Origin: Bryobacterales bacterium KBS 96
Lineage (GTDB): Bacteria > Acidobacteriota > Terriglobia > Bryobacterales > Bryobacteraceae
DNA: 64,000 nt
Direction of reading: 5' to 3'
Assembly: GCA_000381625.1 (NCBI GenBank)
Contig: KB906767.1
Coordinates: forward strand, 2,520,629-2,584,628
In this document: positions 34,004 through 39,922 of the stretch, one piece after another
How the letters are laid out: the number at the start of each line of letters is the position of its first letter
How positions within the stretch are numbered: position 1 is the first letter of the stretch
Made by a program: the position numbers and the translations under genes
The notes under the pieces: generated by a model
What the model was told of the DNA's origin: nothing
The model's database searches: none
Seen by the model: only the letters and a program-made list of their open reading frames with translations

Positions 34004-36778
34004 ATGGACGATCGGAGAGTTCATTCCGCCCGACGGCGCACCGGTCCGCTTGTCATCGCCATTTGCGTTATCGTGGTGCTGATATTCGGACGCCTGTTCG
34101 CCTCTACCTTGCTCGATTTCGAGTGGTGGAAGGAAGTTCACCAGCTCGATACCTGGGTCAACCTCCTGCTCTACGGCGTGCTGCCAATTGCCCTCGCGGC
34201 AATTCTTCTGTTTGCCGCGTTTATCGTGGCATGGAGACGTGGCCTGGCCCGCGGCTCGGTGTATCACCGGGCGGATAATCCGCTGGCGTTACGGCTGGCC
34301 CTGCTTGGTCTGCTTGTGCTCGCCGTTATCGCGGCAAACGCGACCATCGATTCATGGACCGTCGTCCGCTTCTTTGGCGGAATGCGTATTCCCGCCGGCA
34401 AAGCTTCCTACATCGACCCGATCTTCGGCAAATCGCTCCGGTTTTATTTCTTCCAGTTGCCGTTCTATAACGTTCTGCTCCGGGTGTTGCTCACCGGCAC
34501 ACTGCTTTCGCTCGTCATCTACTGGATCAGCGCGCATTTTCACGATTTGATGGACCGGCTCTCGCACCCTCCCGCCGGCGGAGGCATCGACTTTCAGGGC
34601 CTGTCTTTTGGCGGGGCATTCGATTCCAGGTTCATCCGGATTGGAGCGGCCGTTCTTCTGGTGGCGCTGGCATTTGAATTCTACTTTAGCCGCTATGACT
34701 TCTTGTTCGAAGATCACGGAGCTTATCTGCTCGGAGTCGATTATGTTGCCGACCACATTGCCCTTCCGCTGCAGTGGTTGATGATCGTGGCCGCAATTGT
34801 AGCCGCGGTGTTGGTGCTCGTCCGGCGAGCCAAACTGGCGCTGCTTTTGCTGCTGGTTCTGCCGGTCCGCTATTTCATTCCCGGACTCGTCGGCAGTTTG
34901 TACGTACGCCCTAATGAGCTGGCGCTGCAGCGGCCATACATCGCACACCATATCGAAGCCACGCGCTCGGCCTATGGACTGAACAGCAACGTTAAGGAAA
35001 CGACGCTCGACGCCAAGGCGGAAATACCAATCGACTATGCCAAACACAAACCGTTGCTAGACAATGTGCGGCTGTGGGATTGGAAAGCGTTCCACGACAC
35101 GGTTTCGCAAATTCAGCCGCTTCGTCCTTACACTTACCTCGACAGCGACATCGATCGCTACCAGATCGACGGCGCACTTCGACAGGTGTTGCTTACACCC
35201 CGTGAACTGGACATACCGCAGTTGGGGGACGCAGCGCGCCGGTGGATCAATCCGCACCTGATCTACACGCACGGTTACGGCATTGTCATGGCGGAGGCAA
35301 ACCGCATTACGGCGGATGGCCTGCCGATGCTCTTCGTTCGGGACGCTCCGCCAGAAGTGACGACGCCCAGCCTAAAGTTCACGCGCCCCCAACTCTACTA
35401 CTCCGAAGCAGACCAGGAACCTGTTTTCGTTGCGACTTCACAGCCGGAGTTCGACTACCCTTCGGGCGAGGAGAATGTGCATACGCGCTACACCGGCAGC
35501 GGCGGGTTCCCGATCTCTCCGCTGGTTCGCGTTGCGGCCGCGGTGAGCTATGCCGATCCGAATATTCTGCTGACCGACTATTTCACGTCCAGCAGCCGGA
35601 TGATGATTCACCGCCGCATTCTGGAACGCCTTTCGACAATGGCCGGTTTCTTGAACTGGGACCAGGATCCTTACCTTGTGCTCACGAAAGATGGCCATTT
35701 GGTGTGGATCGCGGACGGCTATATGACGTCGTCCGCTCATCCCTATTCGCGAGAGCTTAACGTAGGCGGCATGGGGACGGTGAACTACATGCGCAACTCG
35801 GTCAAAGCGACCGTCGACGCATATACAGGTGAGACGCACCTGTATGTTTTCGATCCGGCCGACCCTCTGATTCAAGCGTACTGGCAGCTCTTTCCGCACC
35901 TTCTGCAGCCTGAATCCGCGATGCCGCCCGACATTCGCGCACATGCCCGTTATCCTGAAACGCTGTTCAGCGTGCAAGCGGAAATCTATCGTGCTTTTCA
36001 CATGCGCGATCCCGAGGCGTTCTACAATCGCGCCGACCTGTGGGATATCGCTACTACGAGCACTGCGACCGGCGGCGTAACGGCAGCGGTAAAGCCGACA
36101 TATGTGGTCGCCACAATGCCTGGTGAGGACACACCGGAGTTTCTTCTGCTGATGCCCTTCACGCCGGCAAACAAAGACAACCTGATCGGCATGATGCTGG
36201 CGCGCTGCGACGGCCCGAATCTCGGACAGCTCGTGTTCCAGCAGCTCGGAAAGCAGAACATCGTCTATGGGCCGAAACAGATTGAATCCTTCATCAACCA
36301 GGATCAGACAATCGCGAAAGATTTGACGCTCTGGAACCAACAGAGCTCGGAGGTGCTGCGCGGCCAGATCCTGGTGCTACCGATTGATAACAGCTTTTTG
36401 TACGTTGAGCCGATCTATATCCAGGCTAGCGGCGCGCGCATGCCGCAGTTGAAAAAAGTTGCGCTGGCCATGGGCAATCGCCTGGCGTATGCCAATACCT
36501 ACGATGAGGCGCTGGCATTGCTAATCGCTCAGACCGGCGGACAGCCAGGTCCGCTACAGCTCCCCGGCGAGCAGCAAGTCACCGGACAGCCCGGGACTAC
36601 GCCGAATCAGGCGGCTCCGGCGGCAATTGCGGCCGTGGTGCAGACAGCGCAGCAGAATCAGGAAAGGCTCCGACAATTGCACGACCACTTCGACCGCTAC
36701 CGCCAGCTAAACTCGCAAGGCAAGTTCGCCGAAGCGGGTAAAGAGCTGGAGGCCATCCAGCAACTGTTGAAACAGTGA
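34004..36778 (+). CDS. UPF0182 (COG1615) large membrane protein
   Basis: 924 residues. About seven membrane helices fill the first ~300 residues (PLVIAICVIVVLIFGRLF and others), followed by a ~600-residue extracytoplasmic or cytoplasmic domain with family-typical strings such as ARRWINPHLIYTHGYG, GSGGFPISPLVR, LSTMAGFLNWDQDPYLV and the C-terminal GNRLAYANTYDEALALL, plus a Gln-rich linker and coiled-coil end. The family is conserved in actinobacteria, cyanobacteria and Acidobacteria; its function is unknown. It has its own start 94 bp after the zinc-finger gene and ends 13 bp from a convergent gene. Confidence 0.92.
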   Translation: MDDRRVHSARRRTGPLVIAICVIVVLIFGRLFASTLLDFEWWKEVHQLDTWVNLLLYGVLPIALAAILLFAAFIVAWRRGLARGSVYHRADNPLALRLALLGLLVLAVIAANATIDSWTVVRFFGGMRIPAGKASYIDPIFGKSLRFYFFQLPFYNVLLRVLLTGTLLSLVIYWISAHFHDLMDRLSHPPAGGGIDFQGLSFGGAFDSRFIRIGAAVLLVALAFEFYFSRYDFLFEDHGAYLLGVDYVADHIALPLQWLMIVAAIVAAVLVLVRRAKLALLLLLVLPVRYFIPGLVGSLYVRPNELALQRPYIAHHIEATRSAYGLNSNVKETTLDAKAEIPIDYAKHKPLLDNVRLWDWKAFHDTVSQIQPLRPYTYLDSDIDRYQIDGALRQVLLTPRELDIPQLGDAARRWINPHLIYTHGYGIVMAEANRITADGLPMLFVRDAPPEVTTPSLKFTRPQLYYSEADQEPVFVATSQPEFDYPSGEENVHTRYTGSGGFPISPLVRVAAAVSYADPNILLTDYFTSSSRMMIHRRILERLSTMAGFLNWDQDPYLVLTKDGHLVWIADGYMTSSAHPYSRELNVGGMGTVNYMRNSVKATVDAYTGETHLYVFDPADPLIQAYWQLFPHLLQPESAMPPDIRAHARYPETLFSVQAEIYRAFHMRDPEAFYNRADLWDIATTSTATGGVTAAVKPTYVVATMPGEDTPEFLLLMPFTPANKDNLIGMMLARCDGPNLGQLVFQQLGKQNIVYGPKQIESFINQDQTIAKDLTLWNQQSSEVLRGQILVLPIDNSFLYVEPIYIQASGARMPQLKKVALAMGNRLAYANTYDEALALLIAQTGGQPGPLQLPGEQQVTGQPGTTPNQAAPAAIAAVVQTAQQNQERLRQLHDHFDRYRQLNSQGKFAEAGKELEAIQQLLKQ

Positions 36779-36791
36779 GGGCGCACGGGCG

Positions 36792-38999
36792 CTAATCGTT
36801 CGCGTCTTGCGAAAATAGCTCCGACCGGTCGACGTGCTCGCCGCGGAACATCACGTAGGTCACGCGCTCCAGGTTTGATATATCTTCGAGCGGGTTTCCT
36901 TCAACCATAATCAGCGTCGCATCGCGCCCAGGCTGAATCGATCCGATATGGGCGCTGGCGTGGAGCGCTTGCGCCGCATTGAAAGTAGCCGCCCGAAGCG
37001 CAACTCCGGTTGGGATGCCAGCTTGCACCCATAACTCCAACTCATGCTGCACAGTTGGGCCGTGAATCACTAACAAGTGACCGGCATCCGAGCCCGCGAT
37101 CAGCGTATCTCCCGCCTTCCAGGCGGTCAGCAAATTCGCCTCTGCGATGTCGAGCGCACGGCTGAAATCCACACCGTTGGATTCGTCTGCCCCGCCCGCG
37201 TTTCCGAGAATGGCTTGTGTCGAATCGAGTAGCGACTTGGGGGCTACTTGCTGAACAAGTGACCGGCCGAGCAGTGTCATTTGATGCCGCTGAACGTCGC
37301 GTGCCGCTTCGGCCGCGCTCAGCGCCGGATTATAGGCGATGCCATTGCGGCGGATCTGCTCGAACAACGCGGCGGGGATCGCAGCTCGCATCGAGCCGTA
37401 CTCAATCGTGCTGGTTGCCGCAGCGATGGCTTCCTGAACGTCGCGCAAATCGCCGGTGTGCGTGGCTGACGGCAAGCCATCCGCCTTTGCCTGCTGAACG
37501 ATGGCATCGTAAACGCGCGTGTCCATCCGGTTGAAAAGCGCGCCCGCCGTTCCCGCGTCGAGAACGGCCTTGATGCAGTTCACGCCGTTGTTTTTCAGAC
37601 TGTCAACCTGTACACGTGCTTCTTCAGGCGATTTCGGCGTACGGACCGTTTCCGCGAGGAACGTCTGCCGCATGCTCTGCGGAAGGACCTGGGCATACTC
37701 CGTGCCGTGCCCGCCTTTGGTGGTGAACATCGGCCCGCAAGCAAACAACTGAGCGCCCAGATATTCCCCGGAATTGACCGCCTGTCGCAGCGCAAGCGAT
37801 GTGTCCAGGGCGTCACCAGTGCTGCGAACCGCCGTAACTCCGCTATAGAGATAGGCCGCCAGCTCGCGCCTTTGCGTGCCCTTTTTCGCGTAGTCCGATA
37901 CATTGCGGTACACGCCGCCCGGCATATTCAGATGAACGTGCATATCGATCAGCCCGGGCAGCAGCGTTTTACCCGAGGCGTCCACCACGGTCGCGTTAAA
38001 CGATTTGGTTTCCGCGGGGGCCGGATCGAATACTTGCGCGATCTTGCCGCCGCGTATGAGAACGGCTCCATTCACAATCACGCGGCCATCGCCGACGAAA
38101 ATCCGCGCGTTTTGGAAAAGCACGGTTTCGTTCCGGCGCATGTTACGCGCCAGAATTTTATCCTGCTGAAGATTCTTTTCACTCTTGACCTGGTAAAGCC
38201 CCATCAGAAGGAAGGGTGCGAGCACGCCGAGTATCCACAATTTCGCGCTTCCCGCGATTTTCTCTTCTTTCTCCCAGCGGAAGAGTTTCACCCCGATAAA
38301 AAGAGAGACAACCAACGTTACGATCAGGCCCGTCATCGGTAGCCAGTTCGAGACAAGGCTTCCGCGCGCAAGGAACATCGACTGCATGCCCTGAAATAGA
38401 TAAGTGGCGGGGATGAATTGCGAGAAGATTTGCAGCCAGTGCGGAAAAAACTGGAGGGGGAAAGTCGCGCCGCTGAGAAAGAGCATTGGCAGATAAAGAA
38501 TCTGCGTGACGATCTGGCCTTCCTGCGCGGAATTGACGACCGCGGCGATGATCATGCCCACTGCGCGAAATGCCAGCAAACCCAGGCAAACGAACAAAAT
38601 GAAATCGATGGTGCGCTCCGGAAGCGGCATACGCGCCCAGATATGGCCGACCGCAAGCACCACGAACACTATCGGAATGAAGCTGACCAAGCCGGCAACC
38701 ATGGACGCAACAATGATGGGCGCCGGGCCGACGGGAGCCACCTTGAAGCGGCGCAGTATATTCGTCTCACGGTCTTGCACAGCGCGCATTCCGGCTCCGA
38801 AAAAGCCGCTGCCGAGCACACCCAGAACCAGGACCATGTTGACGACCTGCGCCATGCCGCCGGGGTTCTTCGAGCCGCCGAAGGCCACGGCAAAAATCAC
38901 GAAGAACATCAACGGGAAGAAAAAATTAAAAAATAGAACTGTCCGGTCACGGCCCATCAGCCGCAGATTGGAGCGGATCTGCGCAATGTACGGCTTCAT
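36792..38999 (-). CDS. ABC-2-type permease fused to an amidohydrolase
   Basis: 735 residues in one open frame. Residues ~1-260 are an ABC-2 exporter permease with six or so membrane helices (ETNILRRFKVAPVGP, LSGATFPLQFFPHWLQIFSQ, FIPATYLFQGM), and a further helix near 253 leads into an imidazolonepropionase-like amidohydrolase (~295-735): LPGLIDMHVHL with the HxH metal pair, CIKAVLDAG with the bridging Lys, SATHTGD with the next His, and GSDAGH with the catalytic Asp. The second-His motif usually written IEHG is IEYG here, so one metal ligand is lost. GxIQPGRDATL and NPLEDISNL complete the fold. It overlaps the ATPase gene by 4 bp (ATGA). The amidohydrolase should face outside or inside depending on helix parity; substrate unknown. 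Confidence 0.88.
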   Translation of the reverse strand: MKPYIAQIRSNLRLMGRDRTVLFFNFFFPLMFFVIFAVAFGGSKNPGGMAQVVNMVLVLGVLGSGFFGAGMRAVQDRETNILRRFKVAPVGPAPIIVASMVAGLVSFIPIVFVVLAVGHIWARMPLPERTIDFILFVCLGLLAFRAVGMIIAAVVNSAQEGQIVTQILYLPMLFLSGATFPLQFFPHWLQIFSQFIPATYLFQGMQSMFLARGSLVSNWLPMTGLIVTLVVSLFIGVKLFRWEKEEKIAGSAKLWILGVLAPFLLMGLYQVKSEKNLQQDKILARNMRRNETVLFQNARIFVGDGRVIVNGAVLIRGGKIAQVFDPAPAETKSFNATVVDASGKTLLPGLIDMHVHLNMPGGVYRNVSDYAKKGTQRRELAAYLYSGVTAVRSTGDALDTSLALRQAVNSGEYLGAQLFACGPMFTTKGGHGTEYAQVLPQSMRQTFLAETVRTPKSPEEARVQVDSLKNNGVNCIKAVLDAGTAGALFNRMDTRVYDAIVQQAKADGLPSATHTGDLRDVQEAIAAATSTIEYGSMRAAIPAALFEQIRRNGIAYNPALSAAEAARDVQRHQMTLLGRSLVQQVAPKSLLDSTQAILGNAGGADESNGVDFSRALDIAEANLLTAWKAGDTLIAGSDAGHLLVIHGPTVQHELELWVQAGIPTGVALRAATFNAAQALHASAHIGSIQPGRDATLIMVEGNPLEDISNLERVTYVMFRGEHVDRSELFSQDAND

Positions 39000-39922
39000 G
39001 CTTCGCGAAGCCTCTTGCCCGTGAGCTCAATAAACACATCTTCGAGCGTCGGCCGCTTCAGATGGATATCGGTCAACTGGAGTCCTTCGGAATCAATCCA
39101 TTTGAGAAGATCCGCGATGGTTCTGGCGGGGTTGGCGGATTTAACCGTGACTTGCCTCCGGTTCGCGCCTGTGATGTATTCATGATCGCCAAGCGGGAGC
39201 TGCTCCAGCCGCATGGGACGGTCGGTTGCGATGTCTATGATCGAGTGACCCAACGTTCGTTGCTGGATTTCACGGGGAGTGCCCACTTCGATAATCCGGC
39301 CGTCGTCAATGATCGCCACGCGATCGCAGAGGCGCTCGGCCTCTTCGATGTAATGCGTGGTCAGCAGAATCGTTCGTTTGTCCTGCTTCAATTCAAGTAT
39401 CAGGTTGTGAATCTCCAGCCGGACTTGCGGGTCGAGTCCGGTGGTCGGCTCATCGAGAAACAGCAGCGCGGGATCGTTCAGTAAAGCCAGAGCAAGCGCC
39501 ACTCGCTGCTTCTGACCTCCGGAAAGAGACGAATACAGGGCGTCGCGTTTTTCCCAGAGTTGCAGGCGCTTCAGTAATTTGTTGCGATCGATATGCCGGC
39601 TATAGAAGGCGTCGAACAGCTCCAACGCTTCGCGCACCTTCATTTTGTCGGGCAGGTTCGTGGCCTGCAGACAGACGCCGATACGCTCCTTTATCTTCTT
39701 CACCTGCGTGGCGGGATCGAATCCGAGCACCGAAACCGCTCCCGATGTACGCGGGCGGAGGCCTTCGAGGATTTCTATCGTGGTTGTTTTTCCCGCGCCG
39801 TTCGGACCGAGTAAGCCGAACACTTCACCCGCACGCACCTGCAAGTCGATGCCGCGCACCGCTTCCACGCTCCCGTAGGATTTGCGCAACTCTTCGACCG
39901 CGATAGCAGAATCCGCTTGCAT
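38996..39922 (-). CDS. ABC transporter ATP-binding protein (DrrA/CcmA-like)
   Basis: 308 residues: Walker A GPNGAGKTT, Q-loop GVCLQATNL, signature LSGGQKQRVALAL, Walker B LLFLDEPTTGLD and H-loop LTTHYIEEAE. The ~90-residue C-terminal tail is typical of the DrrA-type ABC-2 export ATPases. It is the first gene of a two-gene operon whose second gene is the permease-amidohydrolase fusion, overlapping by 4 bp. The pair is a complete minimal ABC-2 exporter if the permease dimerises. Drugs, glycolipids or polysaccharides are usual substrates of this class. Confidence 0.95.
   Translation of the reverse strand: MQADSAIAVEELRKSYGSVEAVRGIDLQVRAGEVFGLLGPNGAGKTTTIEILEGLRPRTSGAVSVLGFDPATQVKKIKERIGVCLQATNLPDKMKVREALELFDAFYSRHIDRNKLLKRLQLWEKRDALYSSLSGGQKQRVALALALLNDPALLFLDEPTTGLDPQVRLEIHNLILELKQDKRTILLTTHYIEEAERLCDRVAIIDDGRIIEVGTPREIQQRTLGHSIIDIATDRPMRLEQLPLGDHEYITGANRRQVTVKSANPARTIADLLKWIDSEGLQLTDIHLKRPTLEDVFIELTGKRLREA

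Follow-up and report, generated by a model that had tools for sequence, protein, structure and literature searches.

Exporters of the DrrAB kind are ABC-2 (type V) systems in which an ATPase gene is followed by a gene for a six-helix ABC-2 permease. We found the same two-gene layout in the soil bacterium Bryobacterales bacterium KBS 96, at positions 36,792-39,922 of the 64,000-nucleotide stretch of contig KB906767.1 analysed here (hereafter referred to as the window), where, unlike in DrrAB, the permease gene continues into an extra seventh transmembrane helix (TM7) and then 446 residues of C-terminal domain derived from an enzyme. Among NCBIfam models, drrA scored highest for the ATPase (267 bits vs a cut-off of 312), and drrB (TIGR01247) was the top transporter model for the permease portion (59.8 bits, under the cut-off of 223.05), which marks the permease as a relative of DrrB and not DrrB itself. 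The C-terminal domain resembles the Xaa-Pro dipeptidase/Xaa-Arg carboxypeptidase clade (2qs8, 3mtw [Cc2672], ADH3, and LlADH), with which its metal-ligand motifs align and whose fold is close (Z 41-44 to 2qs8, 3mtw, and ADH3). However, the three clade enzymes aligned stand alone with full ligand sets, whereas the window domain is tethered to a permease, has a tyrosine (Y534) in place of one ligand, and, unlike the clade, carries the fusion-specific residues W657, R285, and R289. Homologous hydrolases also lie behind a signal peptide or anchor in secreted amidohydrolase-CIA30 proteins of Acidobacteriota (L134 and others), but these have no permease fusion and mostly intact ligands; their CIA30 domain also sits on the permease in another family (L129, L130, and L136). 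PCAT exporters are similar in having a hydrolase fused to an exporter; theirs is a C39 peptidase of the papain type that sits on the cytoplasmic face of another kind of transporter, whereas here it is a metallo-amidohydrolase predicted to lie outside. Molinate hydrolase (4wgx, 4ub9) shares a related fold with the window domain (Z 37), with one ligand substituted in each; according to the excerpted description (PMC4407906), it is a mononuclear homotetramer with one metal per monomer and has lost an Malpha His without being joined to a permease, whereas the window domain has lost an Mbeta His. We found no prior description of an ABC-2 exporter fused to an amidohydrolase in the open-access literature, which does not imply its absence from print. 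On balance, and with moderate confidence, we read the locus as a two-gene type V exporter with a hydrolase, predicted to face outside, that has a second, non-catalytic role and has repeatedly decayed into a pseudoenzyme, the window domain being probably weak or inactive.

The fusion gene is a single open frame of 735 aa with no internal stop, and Pfam detected both ABC2_membrane (residues 8-209, E = 9.8e-26; 91 bits vs a curated cut-off of 26.9) and Amidohydro_1 (residues 345-722, E = 8.6e-25) in the one protein, which confirms the fusion proposed by an earlier reading of the letters made without database searches (the sequence-only reading). The AlphaFold2 model of the fusion (81 sequences; predicted local distance difference test [pLDDT] 90.5, predicted template modelling score [pTM] 0.86) contained a helix at residues 250-273, a second helix at 275-289, and the hydrolase from about residue 290 onward, with the junction at residues ~250-290 (window 38130-38252). 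The ATPase and fusion genes overlap by 4 nt; the ATPase matched ABC_tran (E = 2.1e-30) and DrrA1-3_C, and its motifs GPNGAGKT, LSGGQ, LLFLDEP, and TTH, which we take to be the Walker A, signature, Walker B, and H-loop motifs, are intact. Of 81 loci, 79 contain an ATPase of the same cluster, its median position being directly upstream, and 51 of 53 additional loci also have one. The proposed coupling of the fusion to this ATPase also holds. The two genes and the parts of the fusion are as follows.

38996..39922, minus strand: ATP-binding subunit of the exporter, 308 aa, first gene of the pair (Pfam, motifs)
36792..38999, minus strand: fusion gene, ABC-2 permease + TM7 + amidohydrolase domain, 735 aa (open frame, Pfam, AlphaFold2)
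38262..38999, minus strand: six-helix ABC-2 (type V) transmembrane domain, residues 1-246 (structure match, PF01061)
38181..38252, minus strand: TM7, residues 250-273, beyond the canonical transmembrane domain (model helix, hydropathy)
38133..38177, minus strand: linker helix, residues 275-289, with fusion-specific R285 and R289 (model, alignment)
36795..38132, minus strand: prolidase-type amidohydrolase domain, residues 290-735 (structure and profile match)

The hydrolase domain is nearest to Xaa-Pro dipeptidases and not to imidazolonepropionase, the likeness first suggested. The best Foldseek matches of the whole fusion model were the Xaa-Pro dipeptidase 2qs8 (E = 2.2e-26) and the carboxypeptidase Cc2672 (3mtw, E = 6.0e-25), and the structural Z scores reached 43-44 for prolidase-type enzymes (9kov, 44.3; 2qs8, 43.2; 3mtw, 43.0) vs 31-32 for imidazolonepropionases. 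The predicted model contains the composite beta-sandwich and (beta/alpha)8 barrel of the Xaa-Pro dipeptidase clade, and a profile search (2qs8, E = 1.9e-47) aligned the HxH, Lys, His, IEHG His, and Asp positions with the ligands of 2qs8. Both NCBIfam models scored under their curated cut-offs (Xaa-Pro dipeptidase NF051886, 177 bits vs 500; hutI for imidazolonepropionase, 48.2 bits vs 298.15). The metal-ligand alignment bore out the unusual IEYG (residues 532-535) in place of IEHG, and the window protein keeps five of the six ligand positions.

37932..37940, minus strand: HxH motif, H354 and H356, intact (alignment)
37569..37571, minus strand: K477, expected bridging (carboxylated) lysine, intact (alignment, profile match)
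37458..37460, minus strand: H514, beta-5 metal ligand, intact (alignment, profile match)
37398..37400, minus strand: Y534, codon TAC, replacing the beta-6 metal-ligand His (alignment)
37086..37088, minus strand: D638, beta-8 catalytic aspartate, intact (alignment, profile match)

Nineteen residues separate H514 from Y534, a spacing that matches the Mbeta pair given as Hisc-X18-25-Hisd in the excerpted source (PMC4407906). Position 534 is His in 20 of 20 aligned stand-alone homologues. Tyr occurs there in this genome only, among the family rows described below and the best 80 of 217 relatives found by scanning named genomes with permease-based patterns (ranked by score, with a resulting bias to full-length forms); in other relatives Q, G, R, S, or N stands in place of the same His. 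The sole genus-mate (L147; two genomes in the genus) has His at 534 but Arg at 356 (H356R).

Loss of the metal site recurs throughout the window's own family. In the family alignment (82 rows including the window, 80 with the hydrolase domain and two without it), 46 of the 80 fusions keep all six ligands (HHKHHD); another 16 lack one or more of them in a barrel that is complete or nearly so, and in the remaining 18 the middle of the barrel is gone. Together with L142, these 18 make up 19 barrel-deleted members, in which the sandwich, the first strands, and the last strands are retained and the occupancy of residues 431-550 is at most 0.20 per ten-residue block:

37350..37709, minus strand: barrel part missing in 19 relatives, residues 431-550 (alignment occupancy)

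The columns that 96 intact members conserve but the barrel-deleted ones mostly lack include all six ligand positions. A tree of 147 rows was built by a quick method from the permease and TM7 only; across its 137 rows with a hydrolase domain, at least 19 changes between intact and broken and at least 8 between deleted and full were required. Each ligand is kept by 18-20 of the 20 stand-alone homologues; these were taken from the closer matches with long-branch rows dropped, and the contrast with the fusions is suggestive.

We then compared ratios of nonsynonymous to synonymous change (omega) between domains. Omega for the window and its genus-mate was 0.099 in the permease, 0.051 in TM7 and the linker, and 0.095 in the hydrolase. 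Across 11 broken pairs the hydrolase ranged from 0.065 to 0.43 and the permease with TM7 from 0.019 to 0.27, the hydrolase being the higher in 10 of 11, while a yardstick of 10 intact pairs gave hydrolase values of 0.089-0.19 in nine of the ten, those that were computable. The hydrolase domain thus often evolves under weaker constraint than the permease, but constraint on it persists. The barrel-deleted relatives and those with several ligands lost show loss of essential catalytic residues under constraint; in the window, one of six ligands is lost. Fusion-specific residues, conserved in the fusions and rare in stand-alone homologues, that are also kept in barrel-deleted members include R285, R289, L294, Q584, P648, W657, and E721, with R285 and R289 present in 97-100% of 114 full-barrel fusions and in all 19 barrel-deleted ones; these residues are candidates for contact with the permease. 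That the enzyme half is often broken yet kept suggests, from these sequence comparisons, that it was incorporated into the pump as a functional component.

In the mechanism we propose, TM7 would pass the permease chain to the outside, where it would end in the prolidase-type amidohydrolase domain. The commonest and probably ancestral state would be a tethered metal-dependent amide hydrolase at the pump exit, and, judging from the activities of the enzyme family, an intact domain would likely trim amide cargo on export, for example a small peptide or an N-acyl amino acid. The domain would also have a second, catalysis-independent role, either in substrate binding or in shaping or gating the outer face of the pump, and such a role would explain why the metal site or the middle of the barrel has been lost repeatedly while the rest stays under purifying selection. 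In the window species, the beta-metal site has lost a ligand, so the hydrolase is probably crippled there, either weakly active or inactive, and would be retained for the non-catalytic role. The binding role raised as one option by the sequence-only reading gains support from the recurrent ligand and half-barrel losses under purifying selection.

Several observations weigh against this explanation. All six ligands are kept in 74 of the best 80 of 217 named loci, and this dominance of intact members in the top-scoring set indicates that catalysis matters in many lineages. The domain is wholly absent from some relatives (e.g., L088, L089, and L135) and so is not essential to the pump. The counts of change come from a single quick tree with weak forks, and parsimony counts are blind to gain vs loss. 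The omegas were computed with the simple NG86 method, synonymous divergence (dS) of the domain was at least 1.0 in 6 of the 11 broken pairs, and pairs share members. Furthermore, the hydrolase of the window and its genus-mate is as constrained as the permease, which would also suit an active enzyme.

The last point bears on the alternative that survives best, although we consider it unlikely: that the window domain is an active one-metal enzyme which hydrolyses an exported amide outside, with HxH, H514, and D638 holding the metal. Five of six ligands are intact, the hydrolase omega equals that of the permease, and mononuclear members of the superfamily exist, molinate hydrolase among them (PMC4407906). 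The mononuclear site suggested by the sequence-only reading is possible, but the parallel is imperfect, since in the excerpted account of molinate hydrolase the Mbeta His pair is kept and an Malpha His is lost, the opposite of the window. In addition, the only genus-mate is broken at a different ligand, and broken ligands, recurrent across the fusions, are seldom seen in the 20 aligned stand-alone homologues (2 of 20, at one position). A crippled, non-catalytic domain ranks first for the window copy, followed by an active one-metal enzyme and then by a base error.

We regard a sequencing or assembly error at Y534, which would leave an ordinary intact tethered hydrolase, as improbable. The His and Tyr codons are one transition apart (CAC/TAC), and Tyr at this position is confined to this genome while the genus-mate has His; however, the 6.69-Mb host genome is assembled in two contigs and is 96.7% complete, and the replacement of the same His by other residues in relatives, together with the loss of another ligand in the genus-mate, indicates that ligand loss is common in the fused family.

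The placement of the hydrolase outside the cytoplasmic membrane is predicted from the model of the permease. When residues 1-290 were folded alone, matches to type V transmembrane domains spanned residues 1-246; the best was that of insect ABCH-9C (Z 21.9), a lipid-bound exporter (with ceramide), and ABCG, NosY, and KpsM followed at Z 17-19. A canonical type V transmembrane domain ends in the cytoplasm, and with the domain complete at about residue 246 and one further crossing by TM7 (hydropathy peak at residue 260), the hydrolase is predicted to face outside. The mean loop charges (K+R vs D+E) at the N-terminus (3.6/1.0), TM2-3 (4.0/2.2), and TM6-7 (5.8/3.0) fit this topology, but two features count against it and run contrary to the positive-inside rule: the stretch after TM7 is positive (mean 5.4 K+R vs 2.2 D+E), and the TM4-5 loop, expected inside, contains no K or R. 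A cytoplasmic hydrolase acting as a sensor or in a step before export, which these charges and the short hydrophobic stretch of TM7 would favour, is nevertheless very unlikely given the complete six-helix domain followed by one more hydrophobic helix and the N-termini of most stand-alone homologues, which by eye seem to start with a signal peptide or anchor and read as secreted or anchored outside. A hydrolase predicted to face outside also fits poorly with the earlier suggestion that the exporter exports what the enzyme makes. A TM7-like segment could be read by eye in the enzyme-less permeases L132, L133, L135, L143, and L144, which speaks for the outside placement. TM7 looks like an old mounting point where outside domains get added and lost.

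We further examined the spread of the fusion. In the family sample (150 genomes, counting the window's own), the matches listed extended from the permease as far as residue 356 or beyond in 92 genomes and covered the permease half only in 2, with no comparable permease match listed for the other 56; several of the 92 end at contig ends, and one (G130) is interrupted by an in-frame TAG at the junction. At L055:2058-4271, the TM7 and hydrolase parts of a fusion are separated by an in-frame TAG, reflecting gene fission or a base error. In the class sample (200 genomes), the full fusion was confined to the family apart from L128, L129, and a genome showing 9% contamination; in the phylum sample (247 genomes), L110 was its only carrier besides the window. 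The best 80 of 217 named loci, nearly all from metagenome bins, were all single-frame fusions of at least 700 codons with 46-87% identity, and by title comprised 67 Acidobacteriota (26 of them Bryobacteraceae, Bryobacterales, or Solibacter) and 13 Verrucomicrobiota (Chthoniobacterales and Spartobacteria; L181, L185, L190, L192, L194, L199-L201, L204, L205, L207, L218, and L222). The permease tree grouped the 13 Verrucomicrobiota rows with two members of the window's family (Shimodaira-Hasegawa-like approximate likelihood-ratio test [SH-aLRT] 99), and the group lies inside the diversity of Acidobacteriota fusions; this nesting suggests lateral transfer into Verrucomicrobiota, unless the bins are mislabelled. 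The recurrence of the single frame in many genomes, with titles from two phyla, rules out an assembly artefact. Separate genes are ruled out as the rule as well, since tblastn detected no amidohydrolase within the 8.8-10.8 kb searched per locus around 10 domain-less permeases (L088, L089, L130-L133, L135, L136, L143, and L144). Thus, the search for the same architecture proposed by the sequence-only reading recovered the fusion widely, and neither of the outcomes it had set against its own interpretation was found: the genes are not separate in all relatives, and although the Tyr of IEYG is seen here only, the same His is replaced elsewhere.

Other architectures were built on the same permease. 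L128 and L129, from another family of the class, encode permease, TM7, amidohydrolase, and CIA30, while L130, L131, and L136 encode permease, TM7, and a CIA30-like domain with no hydrolase (CIA30 confirmed by Pfam in L129, L130, and L136 and assigned by reading in L128 and L131). In the family of L128 and L129, 2 of 39 genomes had a permease-to-enzyme match and two more matches ended at contig ends. L110:361-2565 lies in a small genome from a different class of the phylum and encodes a permease joined to an amidohydrolase; it is a distant relative (24-26% identity), has all six ligands, and was the only fusion among the 100 genomes sampled from its class. The hydrolase domains of L128/L129 and L110 fell outside, or weakly beside, the main clade; a single fusion origin was not rejected by the approximately unbiased (AU) test (P = 0.147 and 0.212). 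Secreted or anchored amidohydrolases with a further C-terminal domain that reads as CIA30-like were observed in L109/L134, L137, L138, L141, L145, and L146 (Pfam-confirmed in L134 only).

The neighbourhood did not name a substrate: when an operon that would do so was sought in 81 loci, same-strand neighbour clusters other than the ATPase reached at most 15 of 81, the commonest being PfpI-like (15 loci, by Pfam) and lysA-like (14 loci, by reading), and the bigger opposite-strand clusters look like reading-frame shadows of the two genes. In the window, a gene for a UPF0182 family membrane protein (34004-36778; 924 aa) is convergent with the fusion gene. A role in anti-phage defence was rejected, as the fusion matches no PADLOC model; the ATPase matches 13, which we took as generic ATPase similarity. 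Dipeptides and N-acyl amino acids are the substrates of the enzyme clade, and by analogy with them and with the lipid-bound exporter matched by the permease, our best guess for the cargo is an amphiphilic N-acyl amino acid or peptide.

Taken together, we tentatively propose a new exporter design, in which a type V pump carries an outside, enzyme-derived lid that may first have processed the cargo and then repeatedly become a dead binding or gating module. If the domain is such a lid, the family could perhaps be viewed as a natural series from the full enzyme through single-ligand mutants, as in the window, and half-barrels to none. Related versions of one pump occur in the family with the enzyme domain intact, point-mutated, half-deleted, or absent, and with them the role of a transporter-borne enzyme domain after the loss of catalysis becomes directly testable, as does the repeated origin of pseudoenzymes from one fusion.

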